A stretch of 64,000 nt of DNA from the NCBI GenBank assembly GCA_902570425.1, contig CACFYB010000003.1, forward strand, positions 18,134-82,133, written 5' to 3'. Both the position numbers and the translations under genes were made by a program. Below the pieces are notes generated by a model. It was not told the DNA's origin, made no database searches, and worked only from the letters and a program-made list of their open reading frames with translations. This stretch comes from an uncultured Pelagibacteraceae bacterium. GTDB taxonomy: Bacteria; Pseudomonadota; Alphaproteobacteria; Pelagibacterales; Pelagibacteraceae. This document shows, in pieces, positions 3,719 through 8,443 of the stretch; positions within the stretch are counted from its first letter, which is position 1; each line of letters starts with the position of its first letter.

Positions 3719-4930
3719 TTAAACCTTTTCAAAAATTAAAGCTGCATTTGTTCCTCCAAAACCAAAACTATTGGACATTACTGTTTTTAAATTTACTCCA
3801 GTTTCTGTTTTAGAAACTATTGGAAACTTTTTAGCTTCTTCGTCCATTTCATTAATATTTGCTGAGCCAGCAATAAAATTATTTTTCATCATAATTAAAC
3901 AGTAAATTGCTTCATGAACAGAAGCTGCACCTAATGGATGACCAGATAAAGATTTAGTTGAACTTATTTTTGGAATATCATTTCCAAAAGTTTCTTTTAC
4001 AGCGTTTAACTCAGTAATATCTCCAACTGGTGTAGAGGTACCATGAGTATTTATATAGTCAATTTTATTTTTAGCTGTAACCATTGCCATTTTCATACAT
4101 CTTACTGCCCCTTCTCCTGATGGAGCTACCATGTCGTATCCATCTGAAGTTGCTCCATAACCAGTTAATTCAGCATATATTTTAGCTCCTCTTGCTTTAG
4201 CATGTTCATATTCTTCAAGGACTATTACTCCACCACCACCAGCAATTACAAAACCATCTCTAGTTTTGTCATACGCTCTTGAAGCTTTTTCTGGTGTATT
4301 ATTATATTTTGATGATAGTGCTGTCATGGCATCGAACATTGCCGTCATTGCCCAGTGAAGTTCTTCACTACCTCCTGCAAAAACAATATTTTGTTTTCCC
4401 ATTTGAATCAATTCCATAGAATTTCCAATACAGTGACCACTAGTTGCGCAAGCAGAACTCATTGTATAGTTTGTTCCTTTGATCTTGAAAGGAACCGCAA
4501 GCGTGGCAGATGCAGTGCTTGCCATTGTTCTTGGAACTATAAATGGCCCCATTAGTTTAGGTGTTTTAGCCCTTGTTTTGTCTGCTGCTAAAATTACATT
4601 TTCGATTGATGGACCACCAGAACCCATAACAATTCCAGTTTTAAAATTACTCACTTCGTTTTCTTCTAGGCCTGAATCTTTGATTGCTTCTTTCATAGCA
4701 ACATAATTATAAGCAGACCCTGAACCCATAAATCTTATTGTTTTTCTATCTATGTGATCTTCAAGTTTGATACTTGGTTTACCGTGAACATGGCTTTTAA
4801 GATTATGTTCTTTATATTCTTCAGAGAAGGATATACCTGATTTTGAATTTAATAAAGATTGATGAACTTCTTCTTGATTATTTCCTAAACAAGAAACAAT
4901 CCCCAATCCTGTGATTACTACTCTTCTCAT
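3719..4930 (-). CDS. fabB: 3-oxoacyl-[acyl-carrier-protein] synthase I
   Basis: FabB condenses malonyl-ACP with acyl-ACP and is the synthase needed to elongate the cis-3-decenoyl-ACP made by FabA. The 403 residues carry the full Cys-His-His triad: C161 in [11 protein letters not shown]296 in [11 protein letters not shown] and H331 in SGHPLGAAS. These fall within two residues of the E. coli positions. The start codon overlaps the fabA stop (TAATG), indicating translational coupling. Together with fabA this marks an anaerobic-type unsaturated fatty acid pathway. Confidence 0.97.
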
Positions 4931-5430
4931 TATCTAAACAACCCTACTTTTAAGTTATCAGCTGAATAAATTTTTTTATTGTCAGCTAAAACAACTCCAT
5001 TAGCTAGACCAACTGTTGTTCCACCTGGAGACATAATTTTTTTCATATCAATTTCGTATTTAACTAACTTTATATTTTGCAAAACTTCACCTGTAAATTT
5101 AACAGTTCCGACACCTAAAGCCCTCCCTTTACCAGGGTTTCCCAACCAACCTAAGTAAAAACCAACTAATTGCCACATAGCATCAAGTCCAAGACAACCT
5201 GGCATAACTGGATCCTCCTTAAAATGACATTCAAAAAACCAAAGGTTTTTTTTTATATCCAATTCAGCAATCAATGACCCTTTTTTAAAAGCTCCATTTT
5301 TATCATTAATTTCCGTGATTCTATCAAACATGAGCATGGGTGGAAGGGGTAATTTAGCATTTCCAGGCCCAAAAAGTCTTCCGTTGCCACATTTTATTAA
5401 ATCATCATAAGAGTAGGAGTTTTTTTTCAT
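4930..5430 (-). CDS. fabA: 3-hydroxydecanoyl-ACP dehydratase/isomerase
   Basis: FabA dehydrates 3-hydroxydecanoyl-ACP and isomerises the product to cis-3-decenoyl-ACP, opening the unsaturated fatty acid branch. The 166-residue hotdog protein has catalytic H69 in [15 protein letters not shown] and D83 in GLDAMWQL, plus the FabA-specific FYLGWLG and [12 protein letters not shown] segments. It is first in the fabA-fabB-fabI operon. Its start is 74 bp from the divergently transcribed irr gene, so the irr-side operator at 5482-5499 may also affect it. Confidence 0.97.
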
Positions 5431-5481
5431 AAAATTTGAACATCTTAATACTTGATTTTAGATCATTATAATATACATAAA

Positions 5482-5499
5482 GTTTAGAATTATTATAAT
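5482..5499 (+). promoter_or_regulatory. Predicted Irr operator overlapping the irr -10 box
   Basis: The sequence GTTTAGAATTATTATAAT ends with a perfect TATAAT at 5494-5499, only 5 nt before the irr ATG, which suggests a leaderless or nearly leaderless irr mRNA. It differs at one of 18 positions from a site upstream of rubrerythrin (reverse complement of 5963-5980). It also resembles the alphaproteobacterial Irr box (TTTAGAA-N3-TTCTAAA type) as I recall it. Autoregulation by Irr is inferred. Confidence 0.6.
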
Positions 5500-5504
5500 T
5501 AACA

Positions 5505-5933
5505 ATGTTAAAAAACAGCGAATTTATTGATAAATTAAGATCCTCAGGCCTCAGACCAACCAAGCAGAGACTTAAAATTTGTGAGGTTCTCTTTAATAGA
5601 GATAAAACATTCCATTTCACAATAAATGATCTTGCTAAAATCATCTCGGCAAAACTAAATGAAAAGATATCATTAGCAACAATCTATAACACAGTTCATG
5701 CCTTTAAAAATAAAGGCTATTTAAAAGAAATTTCAATAAATAGTGATAAAAGTTATTTTGATACCAATATAACAAATCATCATCATTTTTTTGATGAAGA
5801 CACTAATCAGTTAATCGATTGTAATAAGGGAGATATTGAGACAATAAATATAAAAAATAATATTACCGGAAAAAAAATTAATTCAGTTGAAGTTTTAATA
5901 AAAGTTGCGAGTGATAATCAAAATCAAAAATAA
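5505..5933 (+). CDS. irr: Fur-family iron response regulator, Irr-type
   Basis: Irr is a Fur-superfamily regulator that in alphaproteobacteria represses iron-using genes when iron and haem are scarce. The 142-residue protein has a Fur winged-helix N-terminus (GLRPTKQRLKICEVLF and SLATIYNTVHAFKNKGYLKEI) and a C-terminal dimerisation half containing NHHHFFDEDTNQLIDC. The HHH triplet at residues 92-94 is an Irr hallmark. Synteny with fabA-fabB-fabI also matches irr loci of Rhizobiales. The metal-binding tail is short and lacks the C-terminal CxxC pairs of classical Fur. A predicted operator covers its -10 region. Confidence 0.85.
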   Translation: MLKNSEFIDKLRSSGLRPTKQRLKICEVLFNRDKTFHFTINDLAKIISAKLNEKISLATIYNTVHAFKNKGYLKEISINSDKSYFDTNITNHHHFFDEDTNQLIDCNKGDIETINIKNNITGKKINSVEVLIKVASDNQNQK

Positions 5934-5962
5934 CTTAATAATTTCAATAACTTAAAACATAT

Positions 5963-6035
5963 ATTATAATTATTCTAAACTATTGACATATTGTTTAGAA
6001 TCATTATATCTTAATCATTAATCAAGGAGATCAAT
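5963..6035 (+). promoter_or_regulatory. Rubrerythrin promoter with two facing Irr-like sites and SD
   Basis: TTGACA at 5983-5988 and TATATC at 6005-6010 (16-nt spacer) form a good sigma-70 promoter. A perfect 9-bp inverted repeat, ATTCTAAAC (5972-5980) and GTTTAGAAT (5993-6001), brackets the -35 box. Each arm begins an 18-nt copy of the motif at the irr promoter: 5963-5980 on the minus strand (17 of 18 identical) and 5993-6010 on the plus strand (15 of 18), the latter containing the -10. An AAGGAGA Shine-Dalgarno lies at 6024-6030, 5 nt before the ATG. Regulation by Irr is inferred. Confidence 0.65.
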
Positions 6036-6452
6036 ATGTCATTAAAAGGAACAAAAACAGAAGAAAATCTTAAAGAAGCGTTTGCAGGTGAAAGTCAAGC
6101 AAATAGAAGATATTTATATTTTGCTCAAAAAGCCGATATAGAAGGTTACAATGATGTAGCTACAGTCTTTAGATCAACTGCAGAAGGTGAAACAGGACAC
6201 GCTCATGGACATCTAGAATATTTAGAACAAGTAGGTGACCCAGCCACTGGAAAACCGATTGGAGAGACTAAAGCTAATTTAGAGTCAGCTGTAGCTGGAG
6301 AAACACATGAATATACCGATATGTACCCAGGCATGGCTAAAACGGCTAGGGAAGAAGGCTTTGAAGAAATAGCTGATTGGTTTGAGACATTAGCAAAGGC
6401 TGAAAAATCACACGCTGGTAAATTCCAAAAAACTTTAGAATCTATTAGCTAA
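6036..6452 (+). CDS. Rubrerythrin (erythrin-type, no rubredoxin domain)
   Basis: This is a 138-residue ferritin-like di-iron protein. The four-helix bundle shows repeated Glu and ExxH ligands: [54 protein letters not shown] and [11 protein letters not shown]. The C-terminal rubredoxin CxxC pairs of classical rubrerythrin are absent, so electrons must come from elsewhere. Family members reduce peroxide or handle iron. It leads a probable operon with a CCG/Fe-S protein and a DUF3501 protein. Its promoter carries two Irr-like sites, and a hairpin follows its stop. The strong promoter and SD suggest high expression. Confidence 0.92.
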
Positions 6453-6512: not shown

Positions 6513-7844
6513 ATGAGCAAAGAAGGTAGCACAGAAGCACCCATTAGGCATCCGATAGATTTTGAAAATCCAGATTTTATAAATCCTGAAAAACTAGATG
6601 CTGAAATGAGAAGAGTATTTGATATTTGTCATGGATGTAGAAGGTGCTTCAATCTTTGTGATTCTTTCCCAAAACTTTTTGATATGATTGATGAATCAAA
6701 AGATGAGGATGTAGAAAGTTTATCAAGTGAACAATTTGCTCCAGTTGTTGATGCATGTACTTTGTGTGATATGTGCTTTATGACTAAGTGTCCTTATGTT
6801 CCTCCACATGATTTTGACTTAGATTTTCCACACTTAATGTTAAGATATAGAACCGCACAAAAGAAATTAGGTAAATTGCCTTTAGTTCCAAGACAATTAG
6901 CTGAAATTGATAGAAATTCAAAATTTGGCGTTATGTTTTCTAAATTTATTAATTGGGCATCTAATCTTAGAAATAATTTTTTTAGAAAAATAATAGAACT
7001 TTTTACTGGAATAGATATTAGGGCACAATTACCAAAATACAATTCAGAAACTTTTTCAAATTTTTTTAAAAGAAATAGTCAAAAGATAAGCTTTGAAAAA
7101 AATAATAATGACAGAAAAGTTATTATTTATTCAACATGTTTTGTAAATTTTAATAAAAAAGATACAGGAATTGCAGCTTTAAAAGTTCTTAAAAAAAATG
7201 GAGTTGAGGTCCAAGAGACCTATCCTGGTTGCTGTGGTATGCCTTTTTTAGAACAAGCAGATTTACCAAGAGTAGTTCAACAGGCAAAAAAAGTTTCAAA
7301 CGACCTGTTAAAATGGATAGATAAAGGCTACAAAGTAGTAACTCTAACAGCTAGTTGTGGGTTAATGTTAAAATTTGAATGGCCTTTATTATTACCAAAA
7401 GATGAAAATATCAAAAAATTATCTGCTAATGTGATGGATATTGACGAGTATGTAGTTGATATTGCAAATAAAGAGGGATTAGTTGATGGTCTAAATGAAA
7501 TTGATGGCGGAGTAACAGTGCATCACGCATGTCATGCTAGAGCTCAAAATATGGGTATTAAAGCTCGGGACATGTTGAAGTTAATTCCAAATATAAAAAT
7601 AGACGTCGTAGAAAGATGCGCGGGTCATGGAGGAACATTTGGTGTAATGAAGGAAACCCATGACTTAGCTTTAAAAGTTGGCAGGCCTGCTGCAAGACAA
7701 ATTAAATCTAAGAATAACAAATATATGGCATCTGATTGTCCATTGGCTGGTAAACATTTGAATCAATTACAATCAGATACAAACATATCAAATGATGAGG
7801 CACTACACCCTATAGAATTATTGGCTAAAAGTTATAAACTATAA
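6513..7844 (+). CDS. Fe-S oxidoreductase with two 4Fe-4S motifs and two CCG domains (GlpC/HdrD-like)
   Basis: Starting at the ATG at 6513 (443 residues), the protein has two N-terminal 4Fe-4S motifs: C39-C42-C45-C49 (CHGCRRCFNLC) and C82-C85-C88-C93 (CTLCDMCFMTKC). Two CCG domains follow, with YPGCCGMPF and HHACHARAQ...ERCAGHGGTFG. This architecture is shared with GlpC, the glycolate oxidase Fe-S subunit and HdrD-type proteins, which pass electrons between quinone, flavin and thiol partners. No glycerol-phosphate or glycolate dehydrogenase gene lies nearby; the partners here are rubrerythrin and DUF3501. A role as electron donor to rubrerythrin is inference. No membrane segment is obvious. 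Confidence 0.85.
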   Translation: MSKEGSTEAPIRHPIDFENPDFINPEKLDAEMRRVFDICHGCRRCFNLCDSFPKLFDMIDESKDEDVESLSSEQFAPVVDACTLCDMCFMTKCPYVPPHDFDLDFPHLMLRYRTAQKKLGKLPLVPRQLAEIDRNSKFGVMFSKFINWASNLRNNFFRKIIELFTGIDIRAQLPKYNSETFSNFFKRNSQKISFEKNNNDRKVIIYSTCFVNFNKKDTGIAALKVLKKNGVEVQETYPGCCGMPFLEQADLPRVVQQAKKVSNDLLKWIDKGYKVVTLTASCGLMLKFEWPLLLPKDENIKKLSANVMDIDEYVVDIANKEGLVDGLNEIDGGVTVHHACHARAQNMGIKARDMLKLIPNIKIDVVERCAGHGGTFGVMKETHDLALKVGRPAARQIKSKNNKYMASDCPLAGKHLNQLQSDTNISNDEALHPIELLAKSYKL

Positions 7845-7846
7845 TT

Positions 7847-8443
7847 ATGTCAAAGGATAAAAGAAAAATAGAAAAAGAAGATATTTTGCCTTTAGACCTC
7901 TACACAAAAAAAAGAAAAGATTTAAGAAAAAATATAGTTGAATTCAAAAAAGACAGAAGAGTTCCCTTAGGACCATATGCAACTTTTTATTTTGAGAGTT
8001 TTGAAACAATGTTAGCTCAAGTACAAGAAATGCTTTACATTGAAAAAGGTGGAGATGAACAATTAAAAGATGAATTAATGGCTTATAACCCTTTAGTTCC
8101 TAATGGCTCAGAATTAACAGCAACTCTAATGTTTGAAATAGACAATCCAGTATCCAGAGCAACTTTTCTGGGTAAAGTAGGAGGTATAGAAGAAAAAGTT
8201 TATATGAAAGTTGATGGAGATCTAATTAAAGCAACACCTGAATTAGATGTGGATAGAACTTCCGCTGAGGGTAAAGCATCATCAGTCCAATTTATTCATT
8301 TTAACTTTAATAGTGACCAGATCAAAAATTTTAAAATGGCTTCCTCACAGGTAGAAATAGGTATTGATCATAAAGAATATTCTCACTCAACAAGATTGAG
8401 TGAAAATACTTTAAAATCTTTAGCATTAGATTTTAGTAAGTAA
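7847..8443 (+). CDS. DUF3501 family protein
   Basis: The 198-residue protein starts with KIEKEDILPLDLYTKKRKDLRKNI and continues with RRVPLGPYATFYFESFETMLAQVQEML, which I recognise as the DUF3501 pattern found next to rubrerythrin and CCG-type Fe-S genes in proteobacteria. There is no signal peptide, membrane helix or Cys cluster, so it is probably a cytosolic accessory protein. It starts two bases after the Fe-S gene stop and is almost certainly co-translated with it. Function is unknown; an iron or peroxide role is suggested only by its neighbours. Its last 11 bases overlap the convergent SH3 gene. Confidence 0.8.
   Translation: MSKDKRKIEKEDILPLDLYTKKRKDLRKNIVEFKKDRRVPLGPYATFYFESFETMLAQVQEMLYIEKGGDEQLKDELMAYNPLVPNGSELTATLMFEIDNPVSRATFLGKVGGIEEKVYMKVDGDLIKATPELDVDRTSAEGKASSVQFIHFNFNSDQIKNFKMASSQVEIGIDHKEYSHSTRLSENTLKSLALDFSK

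Follow-up and report, generated by a model that had tools for sequence, protein, structure and literature searches.

An Irr-box operator before an exchangeable peroxidase gene in SAR11 bacteria: a candidate peroxide switch

In an uncultured Pelagibacteraceae bacterium, copies of one motif, GTTTAGAATnATTATAAT, stand before irr, the gene of a Fur-family regulator, and again before the rubrerythrin gene rbr that follows it. The locus raises the question of which protein reads this motif, and in response to which signal. The original prediction, made from the window (the whole stretch of 64,000 nucleotides analysed here), was that the motif is an Irr operator covering the -10 elements of both promoters, and that the locus forms a compact iron regulon with irr autoregulation and iron-dependent control of the rubrerythrin operon. 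Similarity to the Irr box was scored against the rhizobial ICE consensus, TTTAGAA-N3-TTCTAAA, which has 14 fixed positions and is independent of the present data; a box was called at ≥12/14. The features of the locus are as follows.

4930..5430, minus strand: fabA (NCBIfam fabA, above cut-off), divergent from irr, the left-hand anchor of the locus
5456-5472, plus strand: weak partial copy TTTTAGATCATTATAAT, 9/14 to ICE, in the upstream region shared by fabA and irr
5482..5499, plus strand: Irr box of irr, GTTTAGAATTATTATAAT; the 17-mer 5483-5499 is 12/14 to ICE
5494..5499, plus strand: putative irr -10, TATAAT, identical with the second half-site of the box, from position and conserved spacing
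5505..5933, plus strand: irr, Fur family, Irr clade, 142 aa (Pfam FUR; best NCBIfam IrrA)
5963..5980, minus strand: upstream inverted Irr box of the rbr promoter, ATTATAATTATTCTAAA on the plus strand, 12/14 to ICE
5983-5988, plus strand: -35 of the rbr promoter, TTGACA, between the two boxes
5993..6010, plus strand: downstream Irr box of the rbr promoter, GTTTAGAATCATTATATC, spanning the spacer and the -10
6005..6010, plus strand: -10 of rbr, TATATC, 16 bp from TTGACA, inside the box
6036..6452, plus strand: rbr, rubrerythrin, 138 aa (Pfam Rubrerythrin, 107 bits), without a C-terminal rubredoxin domain
6513..7844, plus strand: GlpC-like Fe-S/CCG-domain protein, second gene of the rbr cassette
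7847..8443, plus strand: DUF3501 protein, third gene of the rbr cassette

The three motif copies lie where they had been described, at 5482-5499 (plus), 5963-5980 (minus) and 5993-6010 (plus), and the identities given for the second and third to the first, 17/18 and 15/18, are correct. Against the degenerate 18-mer they show 0, 0 and 2 mismatches, respectively. The partial copy at 5456-5472 is additional to these three. Perfect matches to GTTTAGAATnATTATAAT occur exactly twice in the 922-kb genome, both at the irr-rbr locus. When up to three mismatches are allowed, the window holds 10 matches against 2.8 expected, a number reached in 0/100 shuffles. Over the whole genome at the same tolerance the motif matches 53 times and its reversed control 62 times, and the weaker genomic matches are therefore taken as background. 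A wide regulon was rejected, considering that these counts equal the reversed control and that the five next-best sites examined are intragenic.

By its sequence the motif is an Irr box in a SAR11 version, TTAGAAT-N-ATTATAA, a 7-1-7 Fur-family site whose second half now serves as the -10 hexamer. One half-site is that of the canonical ICE; remodelling of the other from TTCTAAA to TTATAAA/T lets it double as the -10, and the TTATAAA/T form is found where the box covers a -10. Per-column information is near maximum within the box and low in its flanks. At rbr the overlap of motif positions 13-18 with the -10 (TATATC, 6005-6010) holds as predicted, and the promoter reading is a good one because TTGACA lies 16 bp upstream of TATATC; among relatives, TTGAC is likewise 15-17 bp from the box hexamer. 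The corresponding claim for irr (TATAAT, 5494-5499) holds in part: a recognisable -35 was sought at the proper distance and none was found, so that the irr promoter is assigned from its -10 alone. The final base of the irr box is 5 nt upstream of the irr ATG, and the distance is 4-6 nt in 42/64 relatives having that box. The position of the putative -10 would make the irr mRNA leaderless or near-leaderless. A second TATAAT (5467-5472), common to the upstream regions of irr and the divergent fabA, was considered as an alternative irr promoter and lacks a good -35. It is also noted that the fabA/irr divergent region (window 5430-5500) contains, between the irr box and fabA, an element strongly conserved in relatives, TACTTGATTTnnnnnnnTATAATATA, which is probably the fabA promoter or leader.

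The two boxes before rbr, at 5963 and 5994, form an inverted pair 31 bp apart, centre to centre, with the -35 enclosed. The upstream one lies directly 5' of the rbr -35 and is kept in rbr and many katG promoters; TTGAC between or near the boxes is kept in rbr and most katG promoters. For paired boxes the commonest centre-to-centre spacing is 31-32 bp, about three helical turns.

Conservation upstream of orthologous irr and rbr genes was found in relatives of the same genus, as the original prediction implied. Boxes of ≥12/14 precede rbr in 16/16 genomes (0.13 expected from dinucleotide shuffles; one of the 16 copies is phage-like), katG in 26/28 (0.44 expected) and irr in 21/25 (0.10 expected), and the assignment of the motif to the Irr box/ICE type is borne out by this excess before all three genes. 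It should be mentioned that the shuffle expectations ignore shared ancestry, which leaves the counts from genomes of one genus non-independent; the weight of the argument lies in the recurrence of the box in other families and before unrelated genes (rbr, katG, Prx5, Prx). Among 23 further alphaproteobacterial families, most of them GC-rich, 11 have a box in the irr-rbr gap against 0.01 expected, and the irr-rbr operator is thus considered old. Perfect 14/14 boxes were found in five loci (L027, L037, L038, L076 and L084). In a sister family within the order the rbr boxes are perfect or nearly so (TTTAGAATGATTCTAAA in L037/L038), and a box of irr's own is absent in 4/4 loci tested. Autoregulation of irr is thus likely in the genus, as predicted, but it was not ancestral; it looks like a later addition, because the sister family has the rbr box without the irr box. 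In the irr-rbr gap of the same two loci, L037 and L038 (family f2), a Fur-like palindrome, TTGATAATAGTTATCAA, is located 23 bp upstream (start to start) of the perfect Irr box, an arrangement which suggests dual control of this rbr by Fur and Irr.

A second locus set, independent of the 61 genus genomes, comprised 78 named SAR11 loci and the window. The closest named relatives belong to the Pelagibacteraceae (SAR11) and are represented by single-cell and metagenome assemblies; one of them is a strain of P. ubique. For P. ubique the locus inspected was that of strain AAA795-D22 (L223). The irr box is present in 64 of these loci and missing from about 15, and 77/79 rbr or katG promoters carry the box of the downstream gene.

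The protein encoded between the sites is a genuine Irr, as predicted. In a tree of 58 rows, including 30 accepted alphaproteobacterial Irr and 12 Fur paralogs, the SAR11 proteins form one clade and group with accepted Irr against the Fur paralogs with 100/100 support. The window product scores 131 bits with IrrA, the best of all families yet short of the cut-off of 150, and 121 bits with Irr, short of 170, these NCBIfam cut-offs being curation thresholds and not biochemical criteria. When aligned to B. subtilis PerR (2fe3), the PerR-type ligands H37, D86, H92, H94 and D105, the counterparts of PerR H37, D85, H91, H93 and D104, are present in 79/79 SAR11 Irr proteins. Of the HHH histidine cluster, H92 and H94 are kept in 79/79 and H93 in 78/79. 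In a sequence-profile search of the PDB, B. subtilis PerR was among the two best hits, ahead of every protein named Fur. The N-terminal haem-regulatory Cys-Pro motif is a B. japonicum-type feature that is not common to all Irr proteins, and no CP dipeptide was found in any SAR11 Irr scanned; nor was a CxxC structural zinc site. SAR11 Irr may therefore work like PerR but is no PerR, being an Irr by its tree and having no CxxC. The five H2O2-sensing ligands of PerR have been noted as conserved in B. japonicum Irr as well (PMC4700492).

What stands behind the operator varies from species to species. The order fabA-irr is syntenic in SAR11 and in other alphaproteobacteria, and different genes can replace one another behind the constant operator: rbr with glpC and DUF3501, katG, or a peroxiredoxin of the Prx5 type. 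The window rubrerythrin matches its NCBIfam profile only up to position 145 of 194. Of the 61 genus genomes 16 carry rbr and 28 carry katG, and none has both (random-overlap P about 1e-5, uncorrected for phylogeny). All 28 katG genes and 15/15 chromosomal rbr genes of the genus lie directly behind irr. The second locus set has 52 katG and 26 rbr genes behind fabA/irr, the latter with glpC and DUF3501 where the contig is long enough; a 27th rbr is from Sneathiella, outside SAR11. In L242 (AG-333-B23) the slot holds a redoxin-family (Prx5-type) peroxidase, preceded by paired boxes with TTGACA between them. The glpC-like and DUF3501 genes probably serve rubrerythrin, perhaps by supplying electrons, since in relatives they follow rbr and are lacking where katG has taken its place. 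A fabA+fabB tree puts at least 3 changes of the rbr/katG state on well-supported branches; parsimony counts 8, and recombination may inflate these numbers.

The sixteenth rbr of the genus (L134, 1489-1938, minus strand, on contig C70 of G194) is 85% identical to the window rubrerythrin and lies among phage-like genes (a clamp loader and, by eye, a GroES-like gene). It was not counted as an exception to the slot because its contig is phage-like, not chromosomal. Pelagibacter phage Mosig EXVC030M encodes a rubrerythrin with 80% identity; a host-type peroxidase gene is thus carried by SAR11 phages. One complete relative without irr, G147, has its katG elsewhere, with a promoter lacking the box (n=1). 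Loss of irr in five further genomes (G010, G011, G013, G018 and G027) was considered and rejected: in most of them fabA too is largely or wholly missing, and the missing irr is therefore ascribed to assembly incompleteness. As a separate observation, L034/L289 (G038:C6) carries an irr-katG pair of the genus-g1 type without adjoining fabA, where its family mates mostly have irr-rbr; this cassette looks like one transferred as a unit.

Outside the locus, a strict pattern gave 62 matches in 41 genus genomes against 28 for the control, about two thirds of them at the irr locus. The sole recurrent off-locus context linked to a peroxidase is a 1-Cys peroxiredoxin/ETHE1-like one (L106, L052). Where 1-Cys peroxiredoxin genes occur elsewhere in the genome, a box about 21 nt upstream of the ATG was found in 9/28, and it is absent in most species having that gene. 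In two species (L109 and L111) a match, TTTAGAACAATTCTAAT, occupies the same intergenic place before a solute-binding-protein gene, possibly a further Irr target.

The part of the original prediction that concerned the signal is not supported in the form in which it was made. The conserved targets are peroxidases (rbr, katG, Prx5 and some 1-Cys Prx), and an H2O2 signal is suggested since all of them are; the protein lacks the haem-regulatory motif and has the PerR-type H2O2-sensing site. Classical Irr is a repressor when iron is depleted (PMC3413700). The opposite was reported for rbr of P. ubique, whose mRNA rises 1.57-fold, a small change, upon iron limitation, with irr being iron-unresponsive (PMC2864753). 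Such a rise is expected of a PerR-like repressor, which needs its metal; either H2O2 or a lack of iron/manganese derepresses the genes under PerR control (PMC3953959). Peroxide also acts within established Irr systems: B. japonicum Irr is degraded upon exposure to H2O2 (PMC4902296), and in R. sphaeroides H2O2 strongly induces mbfA, which has an Irr box (PMC3413700). The conserved targets and the sensing site agree better with a peroxide-responsive regulon, which may sense iron as well, than with an iron regulon.

Considering the position of the boxes over the -35/-10 or the start point, repression is predicted, with Irr as the very probable binding protein of the SAR11 boxes and H2O2 as the likely signal. 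We propose the following model, which we regard as probable overall, in which the Irr box/-10 operator, PerR-like release of Irr and an interchangeable peroxidase are combined. An Irr dimer would bind the single site at the irr start, and dimers would occupy the two sites, spaced by about three helical turns, at the -35/-10 of the peroxidase gene. Bound Irr would block RNA polymerase. It would be released when H2O2 oxidises the PerR-type site (H37, D86, H92, H94, D105), or when iron loss empties it, and a rise in peroxide would then lead to synthesis of the peroxidase and of Irr itself. Against the model count the NCBIfam scores short of their cut-offs, the small size of the P. ubique response, the SAR11 loci without an irr box, the many 1-Cys peroxiredoxin genes without a box, an irr promoter that shows no clear -35, and the fact that G147 is the one irr-less genome available for comparison. 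The stronger statement, that SAR11 Irr has given up iron regulation and now acts as a PerR-like peroxide switch at one locus, a fixed slot where lineages repeatedly exchange peroxidases, is put forward tentatively, as somewhat short of an even chance.

Other readings have to be weighed against this model. Under classical iron control of the Bradyrhizobium kind, Irr would repress rbr and itself at low iron and be removed by haem when iron is plentiful. Membership of the Irr clade and the ICE consensus agree with it, as does the behaviour of B. japonicum Irr, which represses mbfA and bfr and degrades in iron-replete cells (PMC4902296). However, the response of P. ubique rbr to iron limitation is in the wrong direction and its irr does not respond (PMC2864753), all SAR11 Irr proteins scanned lack Cys-Pro, and the conserved targets are peroxidases and not iron storage or haem genes; we consider this reading unlikely. 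The PerR-like local repressor is favoured over it on account of the kept ligands, the peroxidase-only regulon and the rise of rbr at low iron.

A different ligand for the same motif was also considered. SAR11 genomes encode a second Fur paralog, and Fur-family sites have the 7-1-7 form in common, so that Fur or Mur might bind the motif, the proximity of irr being incidental. The Fur-like sites seen in relatives, TTGAGAATnATTCTCAA / TTGATAATnnTTATCAA, are nevertheless distinct from the ICE, and some of them adjoin an ICE box; moreover, the box goes with irr: katG of G147, a genome that keeps Fur but has no irr, is without it. Binding by such a second protein is accordingly given very little weight. 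(A similar Fur-like site, TTGAGAATCATTCTCAT, was observed in G147 before an FTR1-like gene, L288.) That there is no operator at all, the repeats being mere AT-rich -10 elements in a genome of 28.7% GC, would account for the TATAAT in the second half and for weak matches occurring genome-wide at the control rate. It would not account for the G of TTTAGAA, the most informative column of the box in a genome with about 14% G, for boxes far above shuffles, for an inverted upstream box that is not at a -10, or for the same ICE in GC-rich alphaproteobacteria, and we regard it as highly improbable.

SAR11 are among the most abundant marine cells, and a standing question of their ecology is whether they clear H2O2 on their own or depend on neighbouring cells ('Black Queen'). 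With katG, rubrerythrin or a peroxiredoxin in one slot, this question becomes readable at a single locus in any genome or metagenome; if the stronger statement above is true, one locus with a conserved promoter decides whether a species can destroy H2O2 from its environment. The arrangement also suggests how a regulator of iron may turn into one of peroxide, and how a streamlined genome can merge an operator half-site with a -10 hexamer. Irr, the ICE, rubrerythrin-like Irr targets and katG as an offshore SAR11 gene are already known, the presence or absence of katG among Pelagibacteraceae having been reported as that of a habitat gene of offshore genera in a paper that makes no mention of rubrerythrin or Irr (PMC12636525). 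Our literature search, in which the main comparative Irr study (Rodionov et al. 2006) was not included, found no paper joining SAR11, katG and Irr, and none on rbr/katG exchange at one Irr-controlled locus; an earlier prediction of SAR11 irr/rbr boxes, for example in that study, is possible. What appears to be new is the exchange of peroxidases behind one constant Irr operator, the half-site/-10 merger and the PerR-like reading of SAR11 Irr.

We have compared the SAR11 arrangement with two known systems. With the ICE of Bradyrhizobium and Rhodobacter (mbfA, bfr, ccpA) it shares the half-site TTTAGAA, the regulator clade and a box at or near the transcription start, and the rubrerythrin-like MbfA is among the targets there; the 5' end of R. 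sphaeroides mbfA mRNA maps inside the Irr box (PMC3413700). It differs in that one half-site has been remodelled into the -10, the boxes often come in pairs about 31 bp apart, the regulon that can be detected comprises little beyond irr and the adjoining peroxidase, and Irr is without Cys-Pro. The Bacillus PerR box, TTATAATnATTATAA (PMC3953959), is in the same 7-1-7 register as the SAR11 core, TTAGAATnATTATAA, and differs from it at one position. The PerR regulon (katA, ahpC, perR) is likewise matched in SAR11 by a catalase-peroxidase, rubrerythrin, peroxiredoxins and the regulator itself; the five H2O2-sensing ligands of PerR are also in SAR11 Irr, and derepression at low iron fits too. Unlike PerR, however, the SAR11 regulator is an Irr by phylogeny, without the CxxC zinc site, and its half-site TTAGAAT is of the Irr type.
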